A DNA stretch of 64,000 bases from Methylophilaceae bacterium 11 (GTDB taxonomy: Bacteria; Pseudomonadota; Gammaproteobacteria; Burkholderiales; Methylophilaceae), in contig JCKJ01000001.1 in assembly GCA_000525025.1 (NCBI GenBank), positions 1,302,001 through 1,366,000 of the forward strand, in the 5' to 3' direction. Numbering within the stretch: position 1 is the stretch's first letter; each line of letters begins with the position of its first letter. Positions 1,184 to 27,050 of this stretch are shown here, piece by piece. The translations under genes and the position numbers were made by a program. Below the pieces are notes generated by a model that worked only from the letters and a program-made list of their open reading frames with translations, ran no database searches and was not told the DNA's origin.

Positions 1184-2008
1184 ATGAAATTTCAATTGAA
1201 AGCATTGGCAGCAGCAATGGTATTGGCAGCAGCTGTGCCAGCACAAGCGGCTATCGAATTTTCTAGTACAGGTAATGGCGGTTTGTCATTAGCAGTGTTC
1301 GATTCAGTAAATAACGTATCTGCATTGTTTGACTTAGGTAAAAACTACAGTGATTTTAGTGTTATCGGTGCTTCATTTGCTGATAGCAACATAGACGCTT
1401 TGGGTACAAATCTTTCATGGAATTTGACCTCTGGTGATTATGCCACTGCTTGGAATACATTCTTGTCTTCAGCAAACATTGCAAATTTACAATTTGCAGT
1501 AGTTGGTGGCGATAACAATGCAGGTACAGCGGGTAATAGAGGCTTTATCAGCACGTTAAATGCTGAAACAGCTGTTGGGTTAACTAATACTGCATTGTTT
1601 GCACAAATTGGTGTTTGGGACCAGTACTTGGCTGATGCTCAAACAGATAATGGTACTGTTTATCAAAATCATACGCTTGTAGAAAACGGTGCTAGCGTTG
1701 GTAATTCTGGTAAAGCGAATACGCAACAATATTTCGCCAATACTGGTAAAAATAATGCGGCAGGTAATGTTTCAGTTGGTAATATTGGTCAGTCGCTTGC
1801 AGTGTTTCAGCAAGTATCAGGTGCTAGCACACTTTCAATTGGTGCCTCTACTATTTTCGCAAACAATGCAACTTTCACATTAGGTACTAATGGCGTATTG
1901 ACTTACGCAACTGCACCTGTAGTTGAAGTGCCAGAAGCCGATACATGGGCCATGATGATGTTGGGTTTAGGCTTTATGGGCTTTGTAGCACGTCGTAAAC
2001 AAGCGTAA
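1184..2008 (+). CDS. PEP-CTERM sorting domain protein (variant VPEADT motif)
   Basis: A secreted 274-residue protein with a clean signal peptide (MKFQLKALAAAMVLAAAVPA, cut near AQA) and a C-terminal PEP-CTERM tail: VPEADT, a short hydrophobic helix (WAMMMLGLGFMGFV) and a basic end (ARRKQA). The tail is the exosortase recognition and processing signal, so the protein is expected to be exported and then cut and moved to the surface or matrix. The middle is rich in Asn, Gly, Ser and Thr, with no recognisable enzyme domain. The sorting motif carries Ala where most proteins have Pro (PEA instead of PEP), a variant I associate with Methylophilaceae. RBS GGGAGAA precedes the ATG. The function of the mature protein is unknown. 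Confidence 0.85.
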   Translation: MKFQLKALAAAMVLAAAVPAQAAIEFSSTGNGGLSLAVFDSVNNVSALFDLGKNYSDFSVIGASFADSNIDALGTNLSWNLTSGDYATAWNTFLSSANIANLQFAVVGGDNNAGTAGNRGFISTLNAETAVGLTNTALFAQIGVWDQYLADAQTDNGTVYQNHTLVENGASVGNSGKANTQQYFANTGKNNAAGNVSVGNIGQSLAVFQQVSGASTLSIGASTIFANNATFTLGTNGVLTYATAPVVEVPEADTWAMMMLGLGFMGFVARRKQA

Positions 2009-2028
2009 TTCGATTCAAACTCTGCCAC

Positions 2029-2086
2029 GGCGAAGCGCTCGCCATCTACTGAAATAAACGAGTAGACCCTGAAATTGCTTCAGGGT
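2029..2086 (+). promoter_or_regulatory. Two consecutive hairpins in the leader of the PstS-like gene
   Basis: Two stem-loops follow the PEP-CTERM gene. The first is GGCGA-AGCGC-TCGCC (2029-2043). The second is ACCCTGAA-ATTGC-TTCAGGGT (2066-2086), a perfect 8-bp stem. Neither is followed by a T-tract, so they do not look like plain intrinsic terminators. They could be mRNA-stabilising or attenuating elements between the two genes. Confidence 0.35.
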
Positions 2087-2123
2087 GGCGGACAACTTAC
2101 ACCTATTATTTGAGGGAACGATC

Positions 2124-3614
2124 ATGAAAATGAAACAAATCGCATTATTGGTGGCTGGCTTAGCGGCTTCAGCTTCTGTATTGGCAGCACCTGTGACTGT
2201 GGGCGAAATTGATGCTGCACGTTCAGCAGGTACATTGCAACAAGCTTGGATCTCTGGTGCATCTGCACCAACTAAATCAGTATACGAAGGCTGGGTAGGT
2301 TCTGGTACAGGCGTAGGCTGTGACTCTGGTACTAATACTATTTTTACTAACGCAACTGGCGCTTCAAACGTACCGGGTGGCTTAGGTAACTTTACTGCTT
2401 ATGCATGTAAACGCTCTGGTATCGTTTCTGTGTTGTATCACACATTAGACGGCGGTTCATTGAATGCCTATTCACCACACACTGTGGGTACACGTTTAGC
2501 ACGCCTTAAATTTGTAGGTACAGGTAACGGTTGTACATCAAACGCAAGTTATGTAGATGCAACCAATACTGAAAACAATGCAACCGTATGGAAGGGTTGT
2601 ACTCGCGTAGGTAATGTATTGCCAGGTACGGGTGCTACATCAGCATCAAACACAGCCAATGCAACTGCCGTTGCGGCTGATCCATTTGCACCACAATTGC
2701 CAGTAGGCGGTTTTTCTGATGTAGAAGCTGCGTTATTTTCACCATCCATTGGTGGTGGTAATGTGTCAGCACGTGGTATTGAATCTGATGCTAACGTAGG
2801 TCAAGTATTTGGTGTTGCAGTTAGTACGCATTTATACCGTGCATTACAAGCGGCACAAGGTTTATCAGATGTGAACTCAACGACATACGACCCAGTCAAT
2901 GCGCCAAATATTACACGTGCGCAGTATGTGGCTATTATTACTTCAGGTGGTGCGGCAAACGGTGATTGGACAGCTATTTTAGGTAGCAATCCAGGTAAAG
3001 TAAAACTAGAGCGCCGTGTAAATACCTCAGGTTCACAAGCTAGCTCAAATGCATTCTTCTTGGCTAGCCCGTGTGCTAGTGGCGCAGGTGCATCACTTAT
3101 CCCAGCAGCAACAGCTACAGACTCAACAACAGATTACGTTGTGACAGAAAATGCTGGTTCTGGTGATGTAAAAACACGTATTACTAGTGCAACTGCAGCA
3201 GGTGGCGTAGAAGGTTACGCAATTGGTGTGTTATCCACTGAGAATAACTGGCGCTTAGACAGTGGTACGCAAAACGGTTACCGCTATGTCAAAGTAGAAG
3301 GCGTACACCCAGAGTTAGGTGATACAGAAAATGCACGCGTCACAGCGACAAACGGCGACTACGCGTTCCACATGGAAATGAAGAACTTTGTACGTAGCAA
3401 CTACGCTGGTGTTCCTGCAAAAACTGCTTTTGAAAACGCTGTTGTTGGCCAAATCACTGCAGCATTGGCTAACCCACAAGCAGCAGCTTGTGCAGTATTG
3501 CCACGTGGCTTGACATTAAATCCACTGGCAGGCTCTGTATGTACAGTTGGCGCACAAGTAGCACGTGCAACTAACTTGGGTAAAAACTGCTCACCAGCAC
3601 AATTAGTACAATAA
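2124..3614 (+). CDS. Secreted protein resembling a PstS-type periplasmic binding protein, unknown ligand
   Basis: A 496-residue exported protein; the signal peptide is MKMKQIALLVAGLAASASVLA and the mature N-terminus APVTVGE. The ATG at 2124 follows GAGGGA; an earlier in-frame ATG at 2085 has no ribosome binding site. Several stretches recall phosphate-binding PstS-like proteins: an early GAS-APTKSVYEGW segment, FGVAVSTHLYRALQ, the serine-rich NTSGSQASSNAFF loop and YAIGVLSTENNW followed by YRYVKVEGVHPE. It is longer than PstS (about 330-350) and has several paired cysteines. No ABC transporter genes are nearby. Its place just before the TpsB/TpsA pair suggests it belongs to that surface system. 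The fold assignment is inference from pattern; the ligand is unknown. Confidence 0.6.
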   Translation: MKMKQIALLVAGLAASASVLAAPVTVGEIDAARSAGTLQQAWISGASAPTKSVYEGWVGSGTGVGCDSGTNTIFTNATGASNVPGGLGNFTAYACKRSGIVSVLYHTLDGGSLNAYSPHTVGTRLARLKFVGTGNGCTSNASYVDATNTENNATVWKGCTRVGNVLPGTGATSASNTANATAVAADPFAPQLPVGGFSDVEAALFSPSIGGGNVSARGIESDANVGQVFGVAVSTHLYRALQAAQGLSDVNSTTYDPVNAPNITRAQYVAIITSGGAANGDWTAILGSNPGKVKLERRVNTSGSQASSNAFFLASPCASGAGASLIPAATATDSTTDYVVTENAGSGDVKTRITSATAAGGVEGYAIGVLSTENNWRLDSGTQNGYRYVKVEGVHPELGDTENARVTATNGDYAFHMEMKNFVRSNYAGVPAKTAFENAVVGQITAALANPQAAACAVLPRGLTLNPLAGSVCTVGAQVARATNLGKNCSPAQLVQ

Positions 3615-3654
3615 TCTAACTTTCTCTGACACACACAGAGTAGCTAGTCAAAAG

Positions 3655-3684
3655 CACACACCTCACAAGGGTGTGTGTTTTTTT
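3655..3684 (+). terminator. Intrinsic terminator after the PstS-like gene
   Basis: The stem CACACACC pairs with GGTGTGTG around a 7-base loop and runs straight into seven T residues. It lies 40 bases after the stop codon and separates this unit from the TpsB promoter region. Confidence 0.85.
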
Positions 3685-3701
3685 ATGTGCAATAGATGTT
3701 G

Positions 3702-3735
3702 GTGCGGACTAGTCTTTTTCATCAACCTGAAACAT
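3702..3735 (+). promoter_or_regulatory. Copy B of the GGACTAGTC element, upstream of the TpsB gene
   Basis: GTGC, then GGACTAGTC, five T residues, C, ATCAA, CTGA and ACAT. The same series in the same order occurs upstream of the ExbB gene (15719-15756). The palindromic core starts 72 bases before the ATG here and 77 bases before the ATG there. A matched position relative to two start codons argues for a shared promoter or operator. Confidence 0.55.
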
Positions 3736-3777
3736 AGTTTTTTGATAATGATGGAGTTTTTATAAATTGAAGTTGGT

Positions 3778-5478
3778 ATGCAAACACCTCTCTTGCGAAA
3801 GCCCATAGCGAAACACAGATGGACTTACATATTGTTATTGCTGGCACCTTTACGTGTGCTTGCTGAGCATGCGGAGGCACCACCAGCGCCTAGCACCGAG
3901 CAAGATGGCCCAGCTCCATTTAGTCAATCCAATGGTTCTCCGGCTCCGGATAAGACCACGCAAGCACCTGAAAAAGAAACGCCTAAGTTTAATGTGTTTG
4001 AGTTTAAGGTGGATGGCAATACCGTGTTAGGCGCCAGCAAGATTGAAGAAGCGGTGTACCCGTTTATGGGTGAGGCCAAGACCATTGATGATGTAGAGAA
4101 GGCGCGTAGTGCGTTAGAAAAAACTTATCAAGATGCTGGCTACCTCACGGTATCTGTGAGCATTCCGCAACAAGAGGTAGATACCGGTGTAGTGCGCTTG
4201 TTAGTCACAGAAGGCACGGTAGAAGCATTACGTATCAAAGATGCGCAATATACTTCTTTGGCAGAAATCAAATCGCGTGTGGCGGAATTTCAGGAAGGCA
4301 AGGTACCGCATTTTCCTACTGCGCAACAACAATTGGGCACGGTCAACAAAGGTCAAAACCGCCAAGTGACGCCTGTGCTAAGGCCTGGAAAATCGCCCGG
4401 CAAAGTGGATGTGGATTTAAAGGTACAAGACAAACTGCCTTTGCATGGCAGCTTAGAATTGAATGATCGCTACTCGTCTAATACCACCGAAACACGGTTG
4501 AATGGCTCGATGCGCTATGAAAACCTTTGGCAAAAAGACCATAGCATTGGTTTGAGTTTTCAAGTCTCGCCAGAAGATTTGAACGAAGTGAAAGTGTTCT
4601 CTGGCACGTATGTGATTCCGCGCTTGAATGGTGATTACTTTGCTGCTTACGGCGTGATTTCAGACAGTGATATCAGTGCGGTGGGTGATGTGAGTGTGAT
4701 TGGTAAGGGCTACATTGCTGGCGCGCGCTATATCCATCCCTTGCCTTATAGTGAGAATTTTTATCAAGGTCTGACGCTGGGTGCTGATTACAAAACCTTT
4801 AAAGAAAGCGTTGTGTTGCTGGGCGCGGACGGGTTTAACACACCGATTTCTTATCTCGCCTTTATGGTGGGTTACGATGGCACGTATCAAACGTCAAGCT
4901 CGCAAACGCAACTCAACCTTGCCTTTAACTTTGCGCCACGTGGCTTGGGTAACAATGAGCGCGAATTTAATGATAAACGTGATGATGCCAAGCCTAACTA
5001 TGCATTTTTACGGGCGGATTTAAAACACACGCACAAACTGCCCATGGATTGGTCTGTGCAGGCAAAGTTGGGCGGCCAAATTGCGAGCGATAAATTGATC
5101 TCAGCTGAGCAATTTACCATTGGCGGCGTGGATTCCGTGCGTGGTTATCTTGAATCCAGCGAGTTAGGTGATAACGGTGTACTTGCTTCTTTAGAACTGC
5201 GCACGCCGCCACTCAAAAAATATATCAGCCAGCATTTATTTAGTGACTACATCAAAGACTTTTACGCCTTTGGGTTTGTAGATGCAGGTATCACAAAAAC
5301 ATACCTGTTATCAGGGAGCGATAGTACGCGTGAGCTCACTTCGGCCGGGTTGGGTTTCAAGATTAAAAGCAATGGTGGTGTATTTACCAACCTAGATTAT
5401 GCGCACGCTTACAAAGATGCGGTGCAGGTCGACAAGGGTGATGATCGCCTACATTTTAGAGTGGGCTACGAGTGGTAA
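3778..5478 (+). CDS. TpsB outer membrane transporter, ShlB/FhaC/HecB family
   Basis: This is the outer membrane pore of a two-partner secretion pair, exporting the TpsA protein encoded just downstream. A signal sequence (about 1-29) is followed by an unusually long Pro/Glu-rich linker (about 30-68). A POTRA region starts near residue 70 (FNVFEFKVDGNTVLG) and includes the DAGYLTVSVSIPQQEVDTG segment. The rest is a 16-strand Omp85-type barrel. The conserved L6 tip motif VRGY is at 454-457 within GGVDSVRGYLESSE. The length of 566 is normal for the family. The ribosome binding site is weak. The TpsA ORF begins 54 bases after the stop, so the two are co-transcribed. Confidence 0.92.
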   Translation: MQTPLLRKPIAKHRWTYILLLLAPLRVLAEHAEAPPAPSTEQDGPAPFSQSNGSPAPDKTTQAPEKETPKFNVFEFKVDGNTVLGASKIEEAVYPFMGEAKTIDDVEKARSALEKTYQDAGYLTVSVSIPQQEVDTGVVRLLVTEGTVEALRIKDAQYTSLAEIKSRVAEFQEGKVPHFPTAQQQLGTVNKGQNRQVTPVLRPGKSPGKVDVDLKVQDKLPLHGSLELNDRYSSNTTETRLNGSMRYENLWQKDHSIGLSFQVSPEDLNEVKVFSGTYVIPRLNGDYFAAYGVISDSDISAVGDVSVIGKGYIAGARYIHPLPYSENFYQGLTLGADYKTFKESVVLLGADGFNTPISYLAFMVGYDGTYQTSSSQTQLNLAFNFAPRGLGNNEREFNDKRDDAKPNYAFLRADLKHTHKLPMDWSVQAKLGGQIASDKLISAEQFTIGGVDSVRGYLESSELGDNGVLASLELRTPPLKKYISQHLFSDYIKDFYAFGFVDAGITKTYLLSGSDSTRELTSAGLGFKIKSNGGVFTNLDYAHAYKDAVQVDKGDDRLHFRVGYEW

Positions 5479-5532
5479 CCGTTAGTTAACGTAAATCCAT
5501 ATTGGCACGGCAGCAAAGAAAAGGAAAATACA

Positions 5533-8500
5533 ATGAATCAAGGCATATATAAACTAGTGTACAGCCGTGTGCTTCACATGATGGTGCCTGTCTCTGAGGC
5601 TGCCAAAGGACATGTGAGCAAGAGCGGTCGCCGTATCCGCAAACAAGTTGCACAGGCGCTGCAATATACCTTGATGCTGAGCTTTACGATGGTGGGGAAT
5701 GCGTGGGCAGAGACGGTATTGCCAGCAGGCGTGGTCATTCGCGATATTGTGAATAACTCTGCCACTTTGGTGAATTCCACAGCCAATAGCGTCACTTTCC
5801 AAAATAATGTAAACGCGGCCATTGTGAATTTTAATAAATTGAATATTCAGCGTGGTGAGAGCTTTAATGTATTGATGAATGCCAATCAAAGCTTTTTAGG
5901 GCGCATTCACGACGTTGACCCTAGCGTGCTGAATGGTACATTCAATGCGGCTGGTAACTTATATTTTCTGAATGCTAATGGCATCATTATTGGTAAGGAT
6001 GCACAGTTTAATGTGGGCTCTTTATATGCAGGCACGTTGAATATTACGGATGAGTTATTTCAATCCGGCTTTGTGAACGACCAAACCTTTACCAAAGCCT
6101 TTGAGCTTGTGGGTACATTGGACTTAACTGACGCAGCGCGCGCCAAGGTGGAAAACGCACAAGTGTTAGTGCAAGGCGGTGCCCAAATCACCACGGCTAA
6201 CAATGGCAAGGTGATGCTGTTTGCGCCCAATGTCAAAGTGGAAAAAGAAGGTGTGGTCACGGATATCAATGGTGTTGTACAAAAAGACGCCAACGGCAAC
6301 GCCATCATGCGCGAGACATTAATCCGCACACCAGAAGGCCAAACTATTTTGGCCGCCGGTAAAAAGATTTACTTAAAAGGCGCCACAGACCCGGCGGGTT
6401 TTTTGGTGGAAGTGGATGCCGGCGGTTCTGCCGTCAACTTAGGTAAGATTGTGGCAGAGCGTGGCAATATCACCATGATGGGCTTAGCCGTGAACCAAGG
6501 CGGCACCTTGACTGCCACCACATCGGTACGTGCCAATGGCTCGATTAAACTGATAGCGCAAGACCGTGCTACTGAAACCGGTGTGAGTGTCGTGGGGGCG
6601 CGTAATGGTAGTGTGACGCTCGCTAAAGGCAGCGTCACTGAAGTGAAGCCGGATTATGCGGATAAAGAAGAAACGATCGTATCGCAGCCATTTAAAACCT
6701 CGGATGTGACGATTGAGGCCAGCTTAATTAATATTGATGGCAAAGTCAGCGTGAAGGGCGGCAATGTGACCGCTAAGTCTGAGTTTGATGCTTCTAGCGC
6801 CCTCAAATTTGATAGCAATGGCAATGTGGATTTAAGCTTAGATCCAACCATTGCAAAAGCTGGTGTGAATAAGCGCCGTATCTATTTGGGTGAAAATGCC
6901 AGCATTGACGTTTCTGGGGTAGATGCTATTGCACCGATGTCACGTAATCAGCTGACAATTCAGTTGTTTTCAGACCAACTAAAAGATAATCCGATTCTGC
7001 GTAATAGCGGTTTGTTTAAACAAACCGTGTATGTGGATGCGCGTAAAGGCACGGATTTATTGGATATTCAGCCATTCTTGGATTTGGTTGGGGCAACCGT
7101 AGCAGAGAAAATGACCAATGCCGGTACGGTGACACTCTCAACCAATCAAGACTTAATTATTAGTAAAGGTGCCGTGATTGATGTATCTGGCGGTTCTACA
7201 ACATATACAGCCGGCACAGTAAAAGAATCTCAGTTGCTATATAACGGCAAGCTGGTGCCAATCTCCGAAGCCAAAACTGGTGTGGCTTATGACCAAGTGG
7301 CGGACAGCCAAAAAATTGTGGATGAAAAGTGGGGGACGGTAAAGACCTACACGCTTGGCGGTGCCACGCAACAGGTGAACACCTATTTTGAAGGTGCAAA
7401 TGCCGGTACGGTGAATTTGACTACGCCCGTTGAAGCTGAAAACACCCAAAATCTAGTCTTGGCAGGGCAACTGATTGCCAATACTAAAGTGAGCAAAGAG
7501 CAACTGCTCGCACATGAGGTGCCAAAGCAGGGTAGGCTGCTGGCCAGTGCAAACAAATTGACCATTGATAAACAGGCCAAGGCTTTGCCAAGTGATTTTA
7601 ACTTTAATCAGGCGCTAGCAGACAGTGCCAATTATCAGTCGGTAATTAGCAGTGACTTTTTAGCCAATGGGTTTAATGATGTTGATTTGTCCAAGGTGAC
7701 GCAGTTAACGGTCAATACACAACTGAATATCAATCCACATGGTCAACTCATATTGGGCAATAGCGGCGTTGGTACCATCACCAATATCAACGCGAGCATT
7801 TACGCACCTAACTCAGATATTTTGTTGCAATCATTGCGTACCAATATTGCTGATAATGTCACGCTCAGCACTGCGGGGATATTTACTAATGACCGGCCGG
7901 TGATTGCTGGCGCACAAACGCGAGAAGTAGCCGCTGATGGTGGCAACATTACCGCTGGTTTACTGTCGCTTGGCAAGAACGTTACTTTAGATGCTTCAGC
8001 AGGCGCGTGGGTAGACAGTGCTGGCACCTTGCATACCGGGGAAGCAGGCGATATCAGTTTTAAATCTAACCAAAATATCGACAGTAGCATTCGCTTGCAG
8101 TCTTACGGGTTTGACCATGGCGGTCGCTTAGCCATTAACTTTATTAATGTAGATGCGCAGGATGGGGAGCTAGCTGCTACCTTAAACATAGCCAATAATT
8201 TGAGTGGCGACTTTACTGTCAATAATGGTTTTTTCAGTCAAGGTGGCTTTTCCGAATACGCATTGTCCGCACACCAAGTGAATATTGGCGCGGCGGGCGG
8301 CACGGCGCAGCAAGTGTATGGCGTTGCGCAAAATTGGCAGATTAATGCCGGTTACCTCAATCAATCAGGTGGTCAGGCTATCTCAGCCATGGCTAAACCT
8401 GTCGTGCAGGCCGATTATTTACGTGAGGCAGTTTCTCTGGACTTTACTGCCAATCGTGTAGGCAACGATTTAGGTACTTTAACGCTGGCAGAAAACACCA

Positions 8501-14500: not shown

Positions 14501-15621
14501 TTGCATCGCGTGCCAATACTGCGCTGCCAAATGAAGGCGCCTCTATTACTTTGCAAGCAGGTTTGGGGCAGGGCGCTGCGGTACAGGCTTATATTAACCA
14601 ATATGTATTGCCAACAGGCACTGGCCCTGTAACTTTGGCCGAAGACGCCAAACGCTTGGCCGAATATCGTAAAGCCACTGCGCAAGCAGTCACGGATTTT
14701 ATGCGTAAACGTAATGGTGACAACACGCTGAGTGATGACGAGGCATTGGCACAATTTAGCGCGCTGGATGTAGAAGCAAAGACGATATTTGCTAATCGCC
14801 ACCTCACTTCTGAATTGATTGGTTCCGCCAAAGACTTTGCCAAAGCAGGTAACCATGCACGTGGTGAAAATGCGATTGCCAGCTTGTTTCCAACGCTCAG
14901 TCAAGGTGATATCTTATTGTTTAACAGCAAAGTATCGACCAACAGTGGCGGTAGCATCGATCTGATTGCGCCGGGCGGCCTGATTAACGTCGGTGTGCCG
15001 GGTCGAGGCGGCGATATTGGCATCATCACGGAAAAAGGTGGGGAGATTCGCGCGATTGCTGATGGTGATTTCCAAGTCAATCAATCTAAAGTCATTACAC
15101 AGTTCGGCAGTGATATCGCTATCTGGTCTACGCACGGCACGATCGATGCGGGTCGTGGTTCCAAAACAGCGACTTCTGTGCCAGAACGCATTGTGCAAAC
15201 CGATGCTTTTGGTAACACTATCATTGAAGTACGTGGCGTAGCTGCCGGTAGTGGTATCCGCGCGCAGAGTTATGATCCGGATGGTCCGAATGGCCCGAAA
15301 GTAGAGCCGAAAAAAGGGACTGTCTATCTAACAGCGCCAACCATTGATGCAGGTGAGGCTGGGATTGAGGCAGGTGACCTTTTTGCAGTTACTCAAAACT
15401 TCCTCAATGCGATTAATGTGCAGATACAGGGCACGTCATCTGGCGTCCCAATTGCCGCAACTTCTAGCATTGCTGGTGTTGGGGCAGGCTTATCGCCAGA
15501 TGCAGTCAACTCTGCTACACAATCTGTAGTGAATAGCGTAGCCCAGTCTGCAAATAACAGTTTTGTGAAACCTACATTACCGTCCATTATTTCTGTCGAT
15601 GTGATTGGTTTTGGTAATTAA
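5533..15621 (+). CDS. Giant TpsA exoprotein, filamentous haemagglutinin family with DUF3739 C-terminus
   Basis: A 3362-residue secreted beta-helix protein. It starts with an extended signal peptide (about 60 residues: MNQGIYKLVYSRVLHMMVPVS, basic middle, hydrophobic core, cut near AWA-ETV). The TPS/haemagglutination activity domain follows: NFNKLNIQRGESFNVLMN, and NANGI where NPNGI is usual. Thousands of residues of Asn/Gly/Val/Thr-rich beta-helix repeats come next. From about residue 3120 there is a DUF3739-type module (GDILLFNSKV, GGLINVGVPGRGGDIGI, STHGTIDAGRGSKT). There is no toxin, cysteine pair, lipobox or PEP-CTERM tail at the C-terminus (ends VIGFGN). RBS AAGGAAA precedes the ATG. The role is probably adhesion or matrix/biofilm; the exact partner is unknown. 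Confidence 0.92.
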   Translation: MNQGIYKLVYSRVLHMMVPVSEAAKGHVSKSGRRIRKQVAQALQYTLMLSFTMVGNAWAETVLPAGVVIRDIVNNSATLVNSTANSVTFQNNVNAAIVNFNKLNIQRGESFNVLMNANQSFLGRIHDVDPSVLNGTFNAAGNLYFLNANGIIIGKDAQFNVGSLYAGTLNITDELFQSGFVNDQTFTKAFELVGTLDLTDAARAKVENAQVLVQGGAQITTANNGKVMLFAPNVKVEKEGVVTDINGVVQKDANGNAIMRETLIRTPEGQTILAAGKKIYLKGATDPAGFLVEVDAGGSAVNLGKIVAERGNITMMGLAVNQGGTLTATTSVRANGSIKLIAQDRATETGVSVVGARNGSVTLAKGSVTEVKPDYADKEETIVSQPFKTSDVTIEASLINIDGKVSVKGGNVTAKSEFDASSALKFDSNGNVDLSLDPTIAKAGVNKRRIYLGENASIDVSGVDAIAPMSRNQLTIQLFSDQLKDNPILRNSGLFKQTVYVDARKGTDLLDIQPFLDLVGATVAEKMTNAGTVTLSTNQDLIISKGAVIDVSGGSTTYTAGTVKESQLLYNGKLVPISEAKTGVAYDQVADSQKIVDEKWGTVKTYTLGGATQQVNTYFEGANAGTVNLTTPVEAENTQNLVLAGQLIANTKVSKEQLLAHEVPKQGRLLASANKLTIDKQAKALPSDFNFNQALADSANYQSVISSDFLANGFNDVDLSKVTQLTVNTQLNINPHGQLILGNSGVGTITNINASIYAPNSDILLQSLRTNIADNVTLSTAGIFTNDRPVIAGAQTREVAADGGNITAGLLSLGKNVTLDASAGAWVDSAGTLHTGEAGDISFKSNQNIDSSIRLQSYGFDHGGRLAINFINVDAQDGELAATLNIANNLSGDFTVNNGFFSQGGFSEYALSAHQVNIGAAGGTAQQVYGVAQNWQINAGYLNQSGGQAISAMAKPVVQADYLREAVSLDFTANRVGNDLGTLTLAENTTLRTDRGGSVSLSAGKQVNVLGDITTPSGHINIRINDKDIELPNDATQAVYIGENAYLSAAGSTVTLPGSRDKLLKTQVFDAGTIDINKPEDSSDPRKGATIIKQGAVLDVSGASVVNDTQTTKGYVRETLYGDAGTISLNGTGALLVDGDFKASASGTGRDGTLNMVYNARLTNDFSPVVSGTETVVLTNDKQLSAAGFSMGDAIKDGSGISAPYVKAQLSADQIEQGGFANVTVKSFLNTPNANDKIELANRFSLNIAGNLTLETPILHVQNDGIANINAGHITFKSPTLFLDPSSVVAGNGQLTTQSKQVYVDGLMGVSGTQQLAINTDLDIHGQGTRTYVQDGAEATESGLTANGEITLTARQIYPDSGAKLKFEALGTASKVTVNSNGKAATPVLSAGGELTLKAADVVQNGVLTAPFGRINLVGSNSVTLTSNSKTSISGSGQNIPFGITTTGGEVFNPSGGATRPLVEKTIDIDGKNVDLQQGAVLDLSAGGDMFAYEWVPGIGGSKDILAQPNTYAVIPTLKGEFAPTDLTYAGSSAGVGVGQSVYLSGVPGLPPGMYTLLPARYALVPGAYVVQTQSTNVLPGTAVKQQDGSTLTAGYFGDVSTGARDANWSTFKVLDGAIFRPATGAVSQSPSQYILTSANTFFNNPLKTNGAEVNTPLDVGKLSLSASQLALNAHVIANTQVGGNGLEVDISSGKIRVVDAQDNSNDGSLQLTAASLNALNAESVLLGGKRQLVKGVTNITTVADSVVIENTGAQVLRTTEFIATANQQVVVNANAVINTGAVAAKPGEKVITSNGQGAVLALSSKNNITYSRNGGSASATQGELIVHEGSQLIAGNSAVLDATNNVSLKGDVKLSDGGKVTLGAKRILIGDAPQGTAGLNVTAASLAALGQLKALTLNSYSNIDTFGAVNVGNNNLDLTFNAAGIVGHLAAGESGAPSSNVASVITANTFTLKNNQDAVLIGTADNSGRALSINANTVRFEGEQAPVMTNGQLATTDQTTVQGYSQLNINAGEVRTAATGQTNLNVAQTNINAGRITSETGGKYTLKASDTLNTQQNTTVNLGANTQFGGQLTIAADRLNVASNIESLSGQVTLQSNQDLTLASGASISANSQTIGYYTTTQHLNAGKVTLSSANGNVNVDTGAAVSVTSTGDAKAGMVQANATQGTLNLNGTLNGKANGTGLGGQLDVDVKTLASLTATDQKATGFSESRHYRARTGDVAITGTGDQALTARDISVSADAGNIRVSGDIVATAPKNSRVGLYANQNLTLESTANIQANSTKSGEAGGKVELFTQQGTLALENGSKINVVGGTGGAGGDVHLRAPRTGAGAGNGVAVSALATAINGAKSTVLEAFKVFTGVTTVTTGNSTGATLGFNTVANDVTDFMANKDNIVASLGKSGDDSFHLRAGTEIQSSGNLTVASDWNLYSETRAGNEPGVLTLRAADNLMLNGSISDGFTTALPTGLIGSGDAWAYRLVAGADFNSASPLATVASAKAGDGSSVTGNLTLANNKLIRTGTGDIDIATGGDVIMRNASSAIYTVGTQAQALDGFDAPTAGNPLYLTNGGDIRVTAQGNIVGAEPANGRQLINQWLFRQGGGNSNLDTTWWVRPDLFKQSLATLGGGDIELRAGGDISNFSASAPTTARFDNFGTTGDLATNVQRIDGGGDVTVVAGNNINGGVYFVAKGDGNINAGGAIQPQEGTFGTVLALQDGQWNVNAGGNVHIDAIINPTLVAQSTTNAPVLDATGRNSYFNTYAPQASVHLASVVGDVNLAVQNAILTQTTGLDNSITNSLLYAPANISIAAYQGDVNVGDLTLMPAASGNLNVFAAQNVGLGNVSMSDADPNILAGINTPSSRFKGFTNTIFSQLLTHSPSLLHGADTQASYIVAKEGDIFANVANAIVSLPKATKLVAGNDITGLNIALQNNRTTDISVIKAGNDVNTQNITVAGPGELLVQAGRNIDLIYPNVTTITTTGNSGSTNPIFNNTFASRANTALPNEGASITLQAGLGQGAAVQAYINQYVLPTGTGPVTLAEDAKRLAEYRKATAQAVTDFMRKRNGDNTLSDDEALAQFSALDVEAKTIFANRHLTSELIGSAKDFAKAGNHARGENAIASLFPTLSQGDILLFNSKVSTNSGGSIDLIAPGGLINVGVPGRGGDIGIITEKGGEIRAIADGDFQVNQSKVITQFGSDIAIWSTHGTIDAGRGSKTATSVPERIVQTDAFGNTIIEVRGVAAGSGIRAQSYDPDGPNGPKVEPKKGTVYLTAPTIDAGEAGIEAGDLFAVTQNFLNAINVQIQGTSSGVPIAATSSIAGVGAGLSPDAVNSATQSVVNSVAQSANNSFVKPTLPSIISVDVIGFGN

Positions 15622-15671
15622 TAAATAACATTAAAAAATATCAATAAATTACTGATTTATAATAAAAATAT

Positions 15672-15707
15672 AGCCTGTATCTTTATCAAGAGGTACAGGC
15701 TTTTTTT
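15672..15707 (+). terminator. Intrinsic terminator after the TpsA gene
   Basis: AGCCTGTA (15672-15679) pairs with TACAGGCT (15694-15701) around a 14-base loop and is followed by a run of T residues. It separates TpsB/TpsA from the Exb/Ton operon, which has its own upstream element. Confidence 0.85.
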
Positions 15708-15718
15708 ATAGGTAATTT

Positions 15719-15756
15719 GTGCAAGGACTAGTCCTTTTTTAATCAAACTGACACAT
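15719..15756 (+). promoter_or_regulatory. Copy C of the GGACTAGTC element, upstream of the ExbB operon
   Basis: GTGC, AA, the perfect palindrome GGACTAGTCC (15725-15734), a T-tract, AATCAA, CTGA and CACAT. It matches copy B before the TpsB gene in order, content and distance to the start codon. This implies that the secretion pair and the Exb/Ton operon are controlled together despite the terminator between them. Confidence 0.55.
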
Positions 15757-15801
15757 TACATTCATACAATGCCTGCAAGTCTAATTTTATAAGTACATGG
15801 C

Positions 15802-17502
15802 ATGTTCACCACAATTTTTGCATTTACCACACAACGTTTTACCAAGATTTTTGTTGCTGCGTTACTCACCATTCATGCTGGGCTTTCACACGCAGAGTGG
15901 AATGCAGACTGGCCTGTACGTAACAAAGTTAGCATTAACCCGCAGGCGTTGGGGGTAAGTGAGCCAGCCGTTGCTTTGATGCGCTTACATTCTGGTAACT
16001 TTGACTTTACCAGTGTCAATGTGGATGGCTCGGATATTCGCCTGATTGCGGCGGATGATAAAACAGAGCTCAAATTTTATATTGAAAAATTTGATGCAGT
16101 GAATGAGTTGGCAACCATTTGGGTGCAATTGCCCACCATTGCCGCCGGTGAGAAAGATGCACATATCTGGGTATATTCCGGCAACGAAAATGCAACTACC
16201 GCCAGTAACGAAAAAGCACTGGTAGCAGCCAGTACCACAGGCCTGTTCCATTTTGCCGAAAATGGCTTGTTAAAAGACAGTAGCGCAAACAATTTGACCG
16301 CAACTGGCGCAATCACTGCACAAAAAGCAGGGTTGATTGGTGAGTCTGCCGTATTTAATGGCGCTGCGCTCAGCATTGCCGCCAACCCAGCCATCACCTA
16401 TGCCAACGGCTTTACCTGGTCCGCTTGGATTAAACCTGCCAGCCTGCCGCAAACCGCAAGCTTATTTGCGCAAGCCGATGGCGCAACATTGACCATTGAT
16501 GCACAAACGCTGCAATTAAACATTGGCGATGCCGTGATTTCTGGGGGCGAGCTCAAAGCCACCACTTGGCAGCATGTTGCATTCACCATTAACAACGGTG
16601 CGGCCACGTTATATGTAAACGGTGCAGAAGTGGCTACAGGCGCAGCACCTGTGCTTACCCCAGCCGCTGCGATTAGCATTGGTGAAGCTTATCTCGGTGA
16701 GATGGATGAGATGCAATTGGTCAATACCGCGAGCAAAGCGCACATTCAACTCGCTGCAAGCAGCCAAGGTGTGGATAGCAAAATATTCGCAGTCGCTGCC
16801 GGAGAAGGGGGTGAAGGCGAAGAAGAAGGTGAAGCGAACTATATCGGCATCTTGATTGGCAGTTTGACGCTTGATGCCAAAATTGTGATTGCTATTTTGG
16901 CGGTGATGTTTGTTATCAGTGCGTGGGTCATGTGGACGAAAGCGCAACTGGTGGCCAAAACCGATAAAGACAATAAAAAGTTTTTAGCGCGCTTTCAAAA
17001 AGCCAGTGGCAAAGAATTGCTAGAGTTAGACAAAGGTGCTCACTTCCCCAACTCCAATCTATTTGGCTTGTACCAAGCTGGCTTACGTGAAATTAAAAAG
17101 CGTGAACATGATGGCCAACTATCCCTCAGCGGCGCCTCTATGGACGCCATTAAAGCAGCGATTGACGCAGACTTGGTACGCGAAACACAACGCCAAAATG
17201 CCGGCATGGTATTGCTGACGATTGCGATTTCCGGCGGGCCATTTTTAGGCCTATTAGGTACGGTAGTGGGCGTGATGATTACGTTTGCCGCGATTGCAGC
17301 AGCCGGGGATGTGAACGTAAACGCGATTGCGCCGGGTATTGCAGCAGCGTTGTTAGCGACTGTGGCTGGCTTGGGCGTGGCGATTCCAGCTTTATTTGGT
17401 TACAACTACTTAGCCAGCCGTATTAAGAACATCACCATTGCCATGCAAATTTTCGTCGATGAGTTTGTGACACGTACCGCAGAGCTGTTCGGTAAAGAAT
17501 AG
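15802..17502 (+). CDS. ExbB/TolQ proton-channel protein with periplasmic DUF2341 and LamG-like domains
   Basis: A fusion protein of 566 residues, over twice the usual ExbB length (about 240). In order: signal sequence (1-31), a DUF2341 domain (about 55-135, with VDGSDIRLIAADDKTELKFY and ELATIWVQLP), and a concanavalin/LamG-like domain (about 145-320, with TTGLFHF and TWSAWIKPASLPQTASLF). An acidic Gly/Glu linker follows, then TM1 (about 360-378), a cytoplasmic loop, and TM2 and TM3 (about 469-500 and 513-537, with GGPFLGLLGTVVGVMITF and ATVAGLGVAIPALFGYNYL). The last two segments are the MotA/TolQ/ExbB core. It should form the proton-driven motor with the two ExbDs downstream. The lectin-like part would sit in the periplasm, where it could sense or hold a glycan or exoprotein; that is inference. 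Confidence 0.88.
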   Translation: MFTTIFAFTTQRFTKIFVAALLTIHAGLSHAEWNADWPVRNKVSINPQALGVSEPAVALMRLHSGNFDFTSVNVDGSDIRLIAADDKTELKFYIEKFDAVNELATIWVQLPTIAAGEKDAHIWVYSGNENATTASNEKALVAASTTGLFHFAENGLLKDSSANNLTATGAITAQKAGLIGESAVFNGAALSIAANPAITYANGFTWSAWIKPASLPQTASLFAQADGATLTIDAQTLQLNIGDAVISGGELKATTWQHVAFTINNGAATLYVNGAEVATGAAPVLTPAAAISIGEAYLGEMDEMQLVNTASKAHIQLAASSQGVDSKIFAVAAGEGGEGEEEGEANYIGILIGSLTLDAKIVIAILAVMFVISAWVMWTKAQLVAKTDKDNKKFLARFQKASGKELLELDKGAHFPNSNLFGLYQAGLREIKKREHDGQLSLSGASMDAIKAAIDADLVRETQRQNAGMVLLTIAISGGPFLGLLGTVVGVMITFAAIAAAGDVNVNAIAPGIAAALLATVAGLGVAIPALFGYNYLASRIKNITIAMQIFVDEFVTRTAELFGKE

Positions 17503-17510
17503 GGCAGGCT

Positions 17511-17921
17511 ATGTCAGAAGGCGTCAAAGAAGAGAACCAGCTGTATGACGAAATCAATATCACGCCGATGCTGGATTTGGCCTATGTGTTACTGGTGATT
17601 TTTATCATCATGACCACGGCATCAGTACAAGGCGTGAAAGTTGAAACGCCACAAACGGTGAACTCCGCTGCGTTGGCAAAACCGCAAATGCGGGCCATTA
17701 CCATTACCAGTGATGGCGCAGTGTATTTGGATGCGTACCCAGTCGATATGGCGACCTTAGAGCAACGCTTGGCAGAGTACAAAAGTGGCAATCCGGAATT
17801 GCCAGTGGTGCTAAAAGGCGATGCTGCCGCCCATTATGAAAAGGTCTCAGAAGTGCTAGAGATTTGTAAAAAGTTAGATATTACTGAAGTCGGATTAGTG
17901 ACGAAAAAGGTGGCTGAATAA
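17511..17921 (+). CDS. exbD: ExbD/TolR family protein, first copy
   Basis: A 136-residue motor subunit: short cytoplasmic N-terminus, one TM helix (about 20-40) and a periplasmic domain. The essential proton-carrying Asp is present at D22 in NITPMLDLAYVLLVIFIIMT. It starts 8 bases after the ExbB stop and overlaps the second ExbD gene by one base (TAATG), so translation is probably coupled. The TM-coding stretch is close to identical to that of the next gene while the periplasmic parts differ. Confidence 0.93.
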   Translation: MSEGVKEENQLYDEINITPMLDLAYVLLVIFIIMTTASVQGVKVETPQTVNSAALAKPQMRAITITSDGAVYLDAYPVDMATLEQRLAEYKSGNPELPVVLKGDAAAHYEKVSEVLEICKKLDITEVGLVTKKVAE

Positions 17922-18325
17922 TGCAGGTTCAAAACGACGCTCAACCTTACGACACCATCAACATCACGCCGATGCTGGATTTGGCTTATGTATTGCTGGT
18001 GATCTTTATTTTGATGACCACGGCCGGTGTGCAGGGGCTGACGATGAACCTGCCCAAACCGTCTAACAAACCAAGTACAGAGAAGCACGACGTGAAAATT
18101 GTTCAGGTGCAGCAAGGTGGCTCCGTCACCATCAACGGTGCAGGTGTGAGCATGGCGGAATTGGAAAGCCAGCTTAATAGCGCTAAAGCCGCAGACCCTA
18201 AATTTAACGTGATGATTAAAGGCGATGCCAAAGTGCCTTATGCAGGCGTAGTCAGCGTGATTGATTTGGTGAACAGACTAGAAATAGAAAACGTGGGTTT
18301 GGTCACCGGACGTATTGGAACTTAA
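17921..18325 (+). CDS. exbD: ExbD/TolR family protein, second copy
   Basis: A 134-residue paralogue of the preceding protein. It keeps the TM helix and the key Asp (D20, NITPMLDLAYVLLVIFILMT), with a different periplasmic domain (LPKPSNKPSTEKHDVKIVQV onward). Two ExbD genes with one ExbB suggest a hetero-dimeric ExbD pair inside the ExbB pentamer. Only 2 bases separate it from the TonB-like gene. Confidence 0.93.
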   Translation: MQVQNDAQPYDTINITPMLDLAYVLLVIFILMTTAGVQGLTMNLPKPSNKPSTEKHDVKIVQVQQGGSVTINGAGVSMAELESQLNSAKAADPKFNVMIKGDAKVPYAGVVSVIDLVNRLEIENVGLVTGRIGT

Positions 18326-18327
18326 GG

Positions 18328-19029
18328 ATGCAAGTGACTCACGATCCGATGATTGATGGCGAAGACGCAAATACCATGCAATTGTGGTTGAAGCGTATTG
18401 CCATTGGGCTACTCGCGCTACTGGTGCTGGGTGCCATTGGCTACGGAATTAGCAAATTGATGTCTGGTGGGGCAACACACAAAAAACAAGTGACCACCAT
18501 TAAGTTATTACCAGATACGCCGCCACCGCCACCGCCGCCACCCCCAAAGGAGCCGCCAAAAGAACAGCCTAAGGAGCAACCCAAAGAAGCGCCTAAAGCC
18601 CCTGAGCCTAAGCCAGCAGAAACGCCACCGGCTGAAAACTTGAAGATGGAAGGTGCGGCAGGTGATGGCCCTAGCCCGTTTGCTGCAGGGGCGGTGAGCA
18701 ATGACTATAAAGGTGGCGATGTGAAAACCATCGGCTCGGATGGTGGTGCCAAATTCAATTGGTATGCGGGTTTGGTCAAATCGCAAATTGAAAATGCGCT
18801 GGAAAAAGATAAGAACATCACCCAAGGGCAGTACAAATTAGTGGTGAATGTGTGGATTAAATCTAACGGTGATGTAGAGAGACTGGACTTGGTGCAATCC
18901 GATGCCAAAGATGACGTAGAGCAAGCTGTGAAGGCAGCGTTGAACAGCATGCCACGCATACGAGAAGCGCCACCTGAAGGTATGCCGCAGCCCATTAAGT
19001 TACGTATTTCTGCAAGAAAGCTTGGCTAA
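18328..19029 (+). CDS. tonB: TonB-like energy transducer
   Basis: A 233-residue protein with one TM helix near the N-terminus (about 20-45, IAIGLLALLVLGAIGYGI). A Pro-rich and Pro/Lys/Glu-rich periplasm-spanning stretch follows (nine prolines in a row, then repeated KEQP/KEAPKAP units). The C-terminus is a TonB_C-like domain (about 145-233, with YAGLVKSQIENALEKDK and QYKLVVNVWIKSNGDVERL). It carries mechanical energy from the ExbB/ExbD motor to an outer membrane receptor. Here the outer membrane proteins within reach are the TpsB transporter and the porin encoded next. The window has no classical TonB-dependent siderophore-type receptor. Confidence 0.9.
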   Translation: MQVTHDPMIDGEDANTMQLWLKRIAIGLLALLVLGAIGYGISKLMSGGATHKKQVTTIKLLPDTPPPPPPPPPKEPPKEQPKEQPKEAPKAPEPKPAETPPAENLKMEGAAGDGPSPFAAGAVSNDYKGGDVKTIGSDGGAKFNWYAGLVKSQIENALEKDKNITQGQYKLVVNVWIKSNGDVERLDLVQSDAKDDVEQAVKAALNSMPRIREAPPEGMPQPIKLRISARKLG

Positions 19030-19063
19030 CAAGCAGTAAATGAATAGATGAGAGAACAATAGA

Positions 19064-20680
19064 ATGATTAAACACTTGCCGATGAAAAAGATATCCCTTG
19101 CGATTTCCATCATGATGGGCTTAGGCATGACTGCGACACAAGTCCAAGCGGATGAACGTGAATCACTGGAGCAGTTAAAAGCCACCACGACCAACTTGAT
19201 TGATCTGTTAGTTAAAGAAGGCGTATTGCCTAAAGACAAAGCAGATGCTTTGGTGAAAAAAGCGACAGAAGATGCCGCCAGACAAGTCAAACAGCAACAG
19301 GCGTTGGATGCGCTTGTAGCAAAACCAAACGAAACGGCTGTTGTGGATGAGAAATCGGTACGCGTGCAATATGTGCCAGAGCACGTGAAAAAAGAAATGC
19401 GCGCCGAAATTGAAAAAGAAGTAATGACCAAACTCAACTATAAAGCAGGTGAGCGCTTGGGCTTGCCTGGCTGGCTGGACCGTATTGAGTTTTACGGCGA
19501 TATTCGTTTACGTGCACAAGAGGATAGCTTTGCGTCTGATAACGCAGACATCGCTCGTTTAAACGATCCAGAGCAGGATATGAATCTTAAAAATTCCACA
19601 GTAGATAGAGATCGCTTGCGTGTACGTGCTCGTTTGGGTGCAGATATCAAAGTGAATGACTGGCTCACGGGTGGCTTGCAGTTTGTAACAGGCTTGCAAA
19701 CAACACCCGTCACGCCTAACCAGACCGAAGGGATTGCACAAGGTAAATATATTTTTGGTTTAGACCGCGCATTTTTAAAAGCCACACCAAGACCTTGGTT
19801 GATGGTAGAGGGTGGGCGCTTTGCTAACCCGTTTCTGTACACAGATATTATGTTTGACCCCGATTTGGCGTTTGATGGCGTGGCGGCAACATTTTCGCCT
19901 AAATTAACCGATACACTCACCTCGTTCACGACAGTTGGCGCCTTTCCTATTGAAGAAGTCGAATCGTCTGAAGATAATAAGGCAAAAGACAAATGGTTGT
20001 ACTCATTGCAAACTGGGCTGAAATGGCAAGCACCGAATAAATCTACGGTGAAGTTGGCAGTGGCTTACCATGATTACAAAAATGTAGAAGGACAGTCTAA
20101 TTCGGTTGGTTTAAATGACTACAGCGGCACTGCACCTGCCTTCAGACAGCGTGGCAATAGTACTTTTGATATCAATGCGGCGAACCTTCCAGGCCAAGCA
20201 TCCATTATTGGTCTGGCCTCCAAGTTTGAGCAAATCAATATTATCGGTCAAATCGATTTTCTCAATTTTGACCCGGTACATGTCACCCTCACTGGCGATT
20301 ACATCAAGAATATTGGTTTTGATAAAAACGAGATCCTGAGAAGAACAGGCAATCTCTATAAAGAGGAAACTGATGCATACCAAGTAAAAATGGATGTAGG
20401 CACCAAAACGTTTAGCGGGCTACGCTCTGAGGCGATTGAAAAAGATGATTGGCAAGTATCGTTGGCCTATAAACGCATAGAAGCCGACGCTGTATTAGAT
20501 GGCTTAAACGACTCCAACTTTAGGTTAGGCGGCAGCGATGCTAAAGGTTGGGCTTTAGTGGGTAATTATGCGATTGATAAAAATACATGGGTAGGCGCAC
20601 GCTACTTATCTGCTGATACGGTAAGCGGCTTGGATTATTCGGTCGATGTATTTTTATTGGATTTAAATGCCAAGTTCTAA
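19064..20680 (+). CDS. Putative porin (Porin_5 type) with coiled-coil periplasmic N-terminus
   Basis: A 538-residue outer membrane protein. It has a signal sequence and a helical, charged N-terminal region (about 30-140: LEQLKATTTNLIDLLVKEG, then LPKDKADALVKKATEDAARQ). A long barrel follows, starting around IEFYGDIRLRAQED and ending in an aromatic residue (LDLNAKF), as barrel proteins do. ATG 19064 follows GAGAGAA; ATG 19082 is an alternative that gives a tidier signal peptide. The N-terminal part contains NETAVVDE, which resembles a TonB box (ETxVV); with a tonB gene directly upstream this is suggestive but unproven. It is the fifth gene of the Exb/Ton operon. Confidence 0.8.
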   Translation: MIKHLPMKKISLAISIMMGLGMTATQVQADERESLEQLKATTTNLIDLLVKEGVLPKDKADALVKKATEDAARQVKQQQALDALVAKPNETAVVDEKSVRVQYVPEHVKKEMRAEIEKEVMTKLNYKAGERLGLPGWLDRIEFYGDIRLRAQEDSFASDNADIARLNDPEQDMNLKNSTVDRDRLRVRARLGADIKVNDWLTGGLQFVTGLQTTPVTPNQTEGIAQGKYIFGLDRAFLKATPRPWLMVEGGRFANPFLYTDIMFDPDLAFDGVAATFSPKLTDTLTSFTTVGAFPIEEVESSEDNKAKDKWLYSLQTGLKWQAPNKSTVKLAVAYHDYKNVEGQSNSVGLNDYSGTAPAFRQRGNSTFDINAANLPGQASIIGLASKFEQINIIGQIDFLNFDPVHVTLTGDYIKNIGFDKNEILRRTGNLYKEETDAYQVKMDVGTKTFSGLRSEAIEKDDWQVSLAYKRIEADAVLDGLNDSNFRLGGSDAKGWALVGNYAIDKNTWVGARYLSADTVSGLDYSVDVFLLDLNAKF

Positions 20681-20713
20681 TATGCCCAGTTCTAACATGC
20701 ACAGTTCTAATAT
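20669..20713 (+). repeat. Three tandem 15-bp units spanning the porin stop codon
   Basis: Units GCCAAGTTCTAATAT, GCCCAGTTCTAACAT and GCACAGTTCTAATAT follow each other exactly. The first contains the stop codon of the porin. Read in the next gene's frame, each unit encodes a five-residue Met-x-Ser-Ser-Asn repeat, so an open frame runs from ATG 20667 into the next gene. It looks like slippage-type duplication in the intercistronic junction. Confidence 0.8.
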
Positions 20714-20750
20714 GACAAATTTTCATGCAGATAGTGATAGGAGAGGCGAT

Positions 20751-21437
20751 ATGCGTATCTATTCCAAGTTAATTGCACTGATCATCATTCCATTTTTATT
20801 TGGCCTGTTTGCCGACCCAAGCTTTGCTGCGGAAAAGAAAGATAAAGCTGCGCGCAAGGCTGCATTAATGATGCAGAAAATGAAACAAGACATGGAAGCT
20901 GAAAAAGCAACGCTACAGGCACAGTTTGCAACAGAAAAGAAAACGCTGGAAGACCAACTCAAAGCAGAAACAGAAGCCAAAGATCTGGCACAAAAAAAAC
21001 TCAGTACGGCTGAATCTAAAGTGCGCAGCCTGGGTGCAGAACTCACAAAAGCAAACACTGAAAAAACAGCACTAGACACACAGCTGACGCAGACAAAAGC
21101 CGATTTGGAAACGACACAAAACAATTTGGCTGAGTTAAAAACACAGCACCAAAAAGCACTGGGCGATTTGGCGTTTAATGATGGTCAGCGTAAAACTTTA
21201 TCCACCAACTTGGCGGAGACCACCAAATCACTCAATACCTGTGAAGATAAAAACGGCAAGCTCTATACCTACGGCAAAGAGCTAGTGCAGATTTATGATA
21301 ATCCTAGCTTGTATGAATCGGTGATGCGTAAAGAAAAGTTTTTTCAACTAAAACGCGTGGAGCTGGAAAATATTTTGCAGAGTCAGCAAGATAAATTGGA
21401 CGAAGCGCGGTACGTGCACATCACTAAGCCATACTGA
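20751..21437 (+). CDS. Periplasmic coiled-coil protein, function unknown
   Basis: An exported protein of 228 residues: signal peptide MRIYSKLIALIIIPFLFGLF, cut near SFA-AEK. A long coiled coil (about 35-160) is rich in Lys, Glu, Ala, Gln and Leu heptads, and the C-terminal region is less regular (CEDKNGKLYTYGKELVQIYD, ending VHITKPY). The ATG at 20751 follows TAGGAGAGG and gives a proper signal peptide; the in-frame ATG at 20667 would add 28 residues encoded by the tandem repeat. It is the last gene of the Exb/Ton operon. A structural or scaffold role between membranes is possible; I do not recognise a family. Confidence 0.75.
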   Translation: MRIYSKLIALIIIPFLFGLFADPSFAAEKKDKAARKAALMMQKMKQDMEAEKATLQAQFATEKKTLEDQLKAETEAKDLAQKKLSTAESKVRSLGAELTKANTEKTALDTQLTQTKADLETTQNNLAELKTQHQKALGDLAFNDGQRKTLSTNLAETTKSLNTCEDKNGKLYTYGKELVQIYDNPSLYESVMRKEKFFQLKRVELENILQSQQDKLDEARYVHITKPY

Positions 21438-25389: not shown

Positions 25390-25392
25390 CAC

Positions 25393-27003: not shown

Positions 27004-27050
27004 ATTAGCCACCTTGACGCAAGAAACTAACCAATCGAAGGAGTGCTGCT

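Follow-up and report, generated by a model that had tools for sequence, protein, structure and literature searches.

Two-partner secretion (TPS) is called energy-free, yet in one class of it a dedicated proton motor and a porin are nearly always present, as is a conserved motif in the tail of the exoprotein; what would such a motor do there? The question is raised by a stretch of 64,000 nucleotides from Methylophilaceae bacterium 11 (contig JCKJ01000001.1, positions 1,302,001 to 1,366,000), hereafter the window, which belongs to a genome of 2.79 Mb on a single contig. Positions 1184-21437 of the window hold, all on the forward strand and in this order, the genes of a PEP-CTERM protein, a PstS-like secreted protein, TpsB, TpsA, ExbB, two ExbDs, a TonB-like protein, a porin and a coiled-coil protein. 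This list of parts had been given by an original prediction made from the letters of the stretch, and open reading frames (ORFs) and Pfam domains confirmed every gene of it in its place and on one strand. The system is real and conserved, is known in outline from Pseudomonas, and is most likely present in the window as a Methylophilaceae variant. That its secretion and motor halves form one system is strongly supported by the evidence below. The near-constant pairing in the genomes inspected is odd because export of type Vb is regarded as energy-free.

A Pdt-type locus in Methylophilaceae

The core of the locus consists of the following features.

3778-5478, +: TpsB, with POTRA_2 and ShlB/Omp85 barrel (Pfam); mature chain starts Pro-rich
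5533-15621, +: TpsA, 3362 amino acids, with ESPR signal, TPS domain and zero cysteine (Pfam/TIGRFAM)
15106-15453, +: C-terminal DUF3739 of TpsA (residues 3192-3307; Pfam); folded in the model
15586-15615, +: tail motif IISVDVIGFG in the C-terminal tail, which is predicted to be disordered (motif search and model)
15802-17502, +: ExbB/TolQ-type motor protein, with DUF2341 (residues 75-140), LamG (191-310, Laminin_G_3) and MotA_ExbB (441-549) (Pfam)
17511-17921, +: ExbD 1, with membrane Asp (NITPMLD) (Pfam ExbD)
17921-18325, +: ExbD 2, with membrane Asp (NITPMLD) (Pfam ExbD)
18328-19029, +: TonB/TolA-like protein with Pro-rich spacer (TonB_2, PF13103, a modest 27.4 bits against a cut-off of 22)
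19064-20680, +: Porin_5, predicted to have N-terminal periplasmic helices and no receptor plug (Pfam, 511 bits, and model)
19358-19387, +: porin N-terminal motif VRVQYVPEHV (pattern search)
20667-21437, +: coiled-coil protein at the position of PA0697 (weak coiled-coil Pfam matches below cut-off)

The linkage of TPS with Exb/Ton genes is not new and is known from P. aeruginosa and relatives. The locus pdtA-phdA-pdtB-exbB2-exbD2-tonB4-PA0696-PA0697 of P. aeruginosa, under control of PUMA3/VreI and PhoB, has been published since 2009 (PMC2729926, PMC7035377, PMC4971064), and homologues of TPS, ExbBD and PA0696 were described together in Pseudomonas, Burkholderia, Rhodopseudomonas and Janthinobacterium (PMC2729926). 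The window likewise has TpsB, ExbB, ExbD, TonB and porin clustered with a giant TpsA and, going by the published descriptions, shares with the pdt locus the order TpsB-ExbB-ExbD-TonB-porin with the giant TpsA alongside. It differs in the place of TpsA, which is encoded between TpsB and ExbB, in the presence of two ExbDs, and in its EpsA, PEP-CTERM and PstS-like neighbours. In addition, PA0697 was described as resembling channel-forming colicins and not as a coiled coil (PMC7035377), in contrast to its coiled-coil counterpart in the window. The pdt-like order together with a coiled-coil gene recurs in the Pseudomonas loci L173 and L178, and likewise in L184, where TpsA is out of reach. As far as the literature was searched, the near-obligate co-occurrence in two phyla, the modular re-ordering, the tail motif behind DUF3739 and a shared repeat, all described below, are new; no paper on DUF3739 was found in the open-access literature.

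The secretion half has the marks of type Vb secretion. TpsB carries PF08479, PF03865 and PF01103 above cut-off, and TpsA has the ESPR, the size and the adjacent tpsB gene of a large exoprotein of this type. The first 400 residues of TpsA gave the TPS domain PF05860 at 41.7 bits (cut-off 33.5) and TIGR01901 at 40.6 bits (cut-off 29.1), the TPS domain being unlisted when all 3362 residues were scanned at E 0.01. Judged from these domains, TpsA is probably exported via TpsB. In the 22 TpsBs inspected, the part in front of the POTRA domain is short and often rich in Pro and Ala; FhaC has its plug helix and linker at this position.

Co-occurrence and order of the two halves

Of 398 genomes searched within the phylum, 14 (12 of 213 genera) contain DUF3739, and full-length Porin_5 is present in the identical 14. 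DUF2341 was present in 13 of these, the remaining one (G284) having its ExbB cut by a contig end. Kinship ignored, two sets of 14 would coincide by chance with a probability of about 4e-26. TpsB and the motor genes lie in one cluster in 12 of the 14 genomes; G268 is split over two contigs, and G284 is too fragmented to judge. In a second phylum, DUF3739 occurred in three of 198 genomes, each of them with near-full-length Porin_5 and with DUF2341.

A scan of named genomes covered the best 80 of 502 relatives of the porin of the window, so that its counts apply to the closest relatives of this porin; the nearest are from a Methylophilaceae metagenome-assembled genome (MAG; 53% identical), a Methylopumilus MAG (51%) and Methylobacillus arboreus (48%). 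Counting only loci with sufficient flank, TonB (63/64) and ExbD (62/63) stand beside the porin, ExbB (56/57) and TPS genes (51/55) 5' of it, and the coiled-coil gene beside it in 69 of 77 loci; two ExbDs are present in 14 of 56. All ten porin-bearing genomes that were chosen for inspection contain DUF3739, including four picked for a porin without nearby TPS genes. The prediction of one system is thus borne out by the co-occurrence in 14 of 398 genomes, by the conserved core order in named genomes and by the second phylum, and a check for the halves being separate, or lacking a conserved order, in most genomes did not overturn it.

Within the system, the order of the modules varies. The block of PEP-CTERM, PstS-like, TpsB and TpsA genes comes before the motor half in the window and after it in Methyloversatilis (L176), and is oriented away from it in Aquabacterium (L182). 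Locus L164 has no motor, a 603-residue ExbB fusion being encoded on another contig; both there and in G268, the porin has TpsB and TpsA as its neighbours, and the ExbB fusion is on a separate contig. Judging from gene position, the porin thus seems to be part of the secretion half. Moreover, several DUF3739 TpsAs can go with a single Porin_5, namely three in G379, three in G200 and two in G284, with one DUF2341 in both G379 and G200. In G155, the system (TpsB, ExbB, ExbD, TonB, porin and TpsA) is present twice (contigs C4 and C5; loci L048, L054 and L055), with TpsA 3' of the porin in each copy.

A conserved tail motif behind DUF3739

In the collected set, DUF3739 of the TpsAs is followed by a tail of about 50-110 residues. 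A DUF3739-like region plus tail was present in 66 of 72 TpsA ORFs, and the other six, including fragments, were dropped; a similarity limit of 0.7 reduced the 66 tails to 56, among which relatives therefore remain. These tails share a motif with the consensus (I/F)(L/I)(S/T)V(E/D)V(L/I)GFG or a variant of it, often at the extreme C-terminus. The likelihood of the motif was 731, compared to 125 +/- 7 (maximum 145) in 30 shuffled sets, for which the motif search was run with fewer starts and fewer rounds. With leave-one-out sites chosen using the full matrix, the best match across the whole TpsA fell in the tail for 54 of 56 proteins. All eight TpsAs of G379, G200 and G284 carry the motif. A second stretch of V-V-G type (e.g. 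NPDSPVQVLGAG, then an LT-EER-like stretch) was seen behind it in TpsAs of L173, L178, G130, G200, G379 and G284.

An AlphaFold 2 model of the last 463 residues of TpsA, built from 36 sequences with a mean predicted local distance difference test (pLDDT) score of 83, is confident for a beta-rich part that has a helical insert, whereas the tail comes out disordered. The insert (residues 3017-3118, about 100 in all) is mainly helical and sits within the beta-rich end region. The C-terminal region gave no fold match in the PDB at E 0.001. Based on the model, the tail motif is read as a short linear address and not as part of the fold; the possibility that the tail forms the last strand of DUF3739 is disfavoured because the model leaves it disordered.

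The V.V.G pattern of the tail resembles that of TonB boxes. A published box of this kind is the SusC-type VDEVVV of Bt1763 (PMC7782687). As a TonB box the motif was nevertheless rejected, since the best match of its matrix fell on the box in only 2 of the 23 Plug proteins of the same genome, three of which showed no candidate box. The mean score on these 23 proteins was -12.4, compared to -11.6 for shuffles (380 of 500 shuffles scoring as high or higher) and -9.8 for random TpsA slices.

The motor proteins and the porin

The motor half combines the MotA_ExbB domain, the membrane aspartate of ExbD and a TonB-type C-terminus, as expected of a Ton system. The profile of the TonB-like protein matched C-termini of TonB, HasB and TolA in the PDB only at E 0.01-0.6. 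Both ExbDs retain the membrane aspartate, and the matching motif was found in 90 of 95 collected ExbD ORFs, truncated ones included. In ExbB, the motor domain is preceded by an N-terminal extension of DUF2341 plus LamG, with a signal peptide read by eye; the function of DUF2341 on ExbB-type subunits is given as unknown in PMC12505986. Genome-wide, there are seven further MotA_ExbB matches, and thus the motor of the cluster is not the sole one of this genome. None of the 23 Plug matches of the genome lies inside the window, and the barrel of the cluster has no plug domain.

The model of the porin (11 sequences, mean pLDDT 66) resembles an ordinary porin with N-terminal helices, OmpM1 being the best match and OprB and OmpF types following; no plugged receptor was among the 50 fold matches listed. 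The porin motif VRVPYVPE was considered as a system-wide TonB site and rejected, the strict pattern being present in just 55 of the best 80 named porins. A looser pattern is missing from 23 of 94 porin-bearing loci (five outside porins and the duplicate L107 excluded), some of which are truncated or mis-started, and the association of the motif with the GFG of the tail, in 58 loci holding both, looks clade-driven. A PHROGs search gave nothing useful.

Regulatory elements and accessory genes

Upstream of and between the core genes, the following elements and accessory genes were found.

8-883, +: EpsA, LuxR-type regulator linked to XrtB/PEP-CTERM, non-core candidate regulator (TIGR03020, 224 bits, cut-off 170)
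929-944, +: inverted repeat TAGTTC-TTTC-GGACTA, 5' of the PEP-CTERM gene
1184-2008, +: PEP-CTERM protein, accessory (PF07589)
2085-3614, +: PstS-like secreted protein, accessory (profile match to the phosphate-binding protein 4n13)
3706-3725, +: shared element GGACTAGTCTTTTTCATCAA before tpsB, one of two genome copies
15725-15746, +: shared element GGACTAGTCCTTTTTTAATCAA before exbB, one of two genome copies

The pattern GGACTAGTCNTTTTN{1,3}ATCAA has exactly two matches in the 2.79-Mb genome, before tpsB and before exbB, and none in the reversed control. The promoter element proposed to be shared by both halves is therefore real and, genome-wide, confined to these two genes. The inverted repeat TAGTYC-N3..5-GGACTA has seven matches in 2.14 Mb of collected loci (L145, L161, L163, L176, L046 and L047 of G360, and the window), all 32-255 bases 5' of a gene, four of them before exbB and three before PEP-CTERM genes, including the one at 929 of the window. 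Permuted half-sites gave a mean of 1.2 and a maximum of 10 matches, and two of the seven (L163 and L176) are near-identical; the weight of the repeat is in the positions and not in the number of its matches. The tpsB and exbB elements of the window share only the half-site GGACTAGT or GGACTA with the repeat and do not fit its pattern. EpsA could be the protein that reads this repeat; G360 and G019 too have a homologue of it next to the locus. PhoB boxes in the window were not above chance (5 matches, 5.8 expected). In PAO1, a single promoter was reported to serve phdA, pdtB, exbB2D2, tonB4 and PA0696-PA0701 (PMC4971064).

The designation PstS-like is weakly supported. A five-sequence profile retrieved a single PDB entry, 4n13 (E 3.5e-4, profile positions 206-297), and neither a Pfam scan nor a single-sequence search gave a match. 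The likelier start of the gene is the Met at 2124, where two homologues start. The gene was detected beside the locus in three of the 14 DUF3739 genomes of the phylum and in two of the best 80 of 502 named loci (L176 and L182), most of which end short of it. The PstS-like and PEP-CTERM genes, originally listed as parts, do accompany the TPS half; since they do so in a subset only, they are not counted as core.

Possible roles of the motor

From the sequences, TpsA, TpsB or the porin would be a plausible target of the motor. As type V export is described as energy-free, the motor likelier serves a step after or beside translocation. With a confidence just short of even, we favour a Pdt-type TPS with a dedicated Exb/Ton motor that acts on the assembly of TpsB, tail and porin to anchor, tension or release the fibre. 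TpsB would export TpsA, N-terminus first and without energy; the C-terminal end would remain lodged in the pore of TpsB, and the tail would reach into the periplasm, where it could be the address through which a shared apparatus recognises each DUF3739 TpsA of the cell. The motor would then pull on the outer-membrane assembly via the TonB-like protein, steadied by porin and coiled-coil protein, and the fibre would be anchored, tensioned or released depending on the proton gradient. A more specific form, in which the motor grips the tail of the exoprotein seated in TpsB and pulls, such that the fibre is held, tensioned, retracted or let go and one motor serves several fibres, we consider rather unlikely. 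A Ton system that powers export rather than import has a counterpart in Myxococcus, where it drives secretion of PopC via Oar (PMC11658791); Oar, however, is a plugged TonB-dependent transporter, whereas the exporter of the window is TpsB and the additional barrel a porin.

Several observations weigh against such a role. Type V export is said to run without an energy source, and translocation has been reconstituted in liposomes with no energy supplied from outside (PMC5422565). When tpsA, tpsB, PA0696 or the tonB homologue PA0695 of PAO1 was disrupted by insertion, the virulence induced by VreI in zebrafish embryos was not reduced (PMC2729926). We found no experiment linking the motor to TpsA and, in the open-access literature, no test of the motor in TpsA display. 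The tail motif is not the best match in 2 of 56 tails and is unlike the TonB boxes of the Plug-domain proteins of its own genome. Furthermore, some parts occur without the others: the coiled-coil gene is absent in 8 of 77 named loci; six further genomes of the phylum have a partial Porin_5, with no other part of the system at the loci of the five that were inspected; and in the second phylum, a full-length Porin_5 stands at a contig end of G537, which has neither DUF3739 nor DUF2341, and DUF2341 occurs without DUF3739 in 8 of 11 DUF2341 genomes.

Alternatively, the locus could be an uptake machine in which TpsA is a surface collector, the motor energises ligand transport through the porin, and the PstS-like protein is the binder in some species. 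The PAO1 homologues are induced by phosphate limitation via PhoB (PMC7035377, PMC4971064, PMC9769906), PA0696 and PdtA being among the proteins most enriched under this condition (PMC9769906); the PstS-like gene goes with the TPS half in some beta-proteobacteria; and HxuA/HxuC of Haemophilus is a TPS-linked uptake system, HxuCBA resembling the window in that a TPS shares its operon with a TonB-linked function (PMC5422565). HxuC, however, is a TonB-dependent transporter, and the operon as described there comes without dedicated ExbBD/TonB or Porin_5 (PMC5422565). Uptake appears unlikely, given that the porin model, albeit with a low mean pLDDT, is of the ordinary type and has no plugged receptor among its listed matches, that the PstS-like gene was undetected in the inspected stretches of 11 of 14 genomes of the phylum, and that the PhoB box in the window is not above chance.

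Two further explanations are less probable. Motor and porin might do another envelope job, e.g. for exopolysaccharide or a PEP-CTERM surface layer, and share with the TPS just locus and regulator. The inverted repeat common to exbB and PEP-CTERM genes and the re-ordering and inversion of the halves (L176, L182) fit this explanation, but the near-obligate co-occurrence with DUF3739 extends to loci without detected EpsA or PEP-CTERM genes and to the second phylum, which makes it improbable. Least probable of all is a machine for force-generating adhesion or gliding, in which the motor moves the anchored giant adhesin. AglRQS-Glt of Myxococcus and GldLM with SprB of Flavobacterium are proton motors acting on a surface adhesin, and the ExbB-type stator, one or two ExbDs, TonB-like link, outer-membrane barrel and giant adhesin resemble their parts. 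The likeness is one of parts lists. Proton-dependent motors are reported to power both type IX secretion and gliding in Flavobacterium (PMC8986121). However, the domain scans of the cluster recognised no motility genes, and a match to GltJ was weak (24.6 bits against a cut-off of 450, residues 19-111 around a Pro-rich stretch).

A motor acting on the assembly of TpsB, tail and porin would be a testable case of energy coupling at the outer membrane beyond nutrient receptors. It would also point to a function for the Pseudomonas motor, as the Ton genes of the P. aeruginosa locus were still called uncharacterised, and PA0696 a putative porin, in 2020 (PMC7035377).

Neighbouring genes

Near several TpsAs of G200, G379, G284, G324 and G255, we recognised by eye genes with an STN-like start and a TonB-like end that resemble the published VreA (PMC2729926) (loci L098, L042, L053, L037, L039, L044, L030, L031, L040 and L097); several TpsAs of G379, G200 and G284 are located behind such genes. 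The TonB-like ends of their products and the motor TonB might have an outer-membrane partner in common, through which the VreA-like proteins could signal on TpsA. In the window, the locus is directly followed by a choice-of-anchor I protein with PEP-CTERM signal (PF22494, PF07589; 21943-23475), and efflux genes of TolC-HlyD-AcrB resistance-nodulation-division type adjoin it at 24109-30182.

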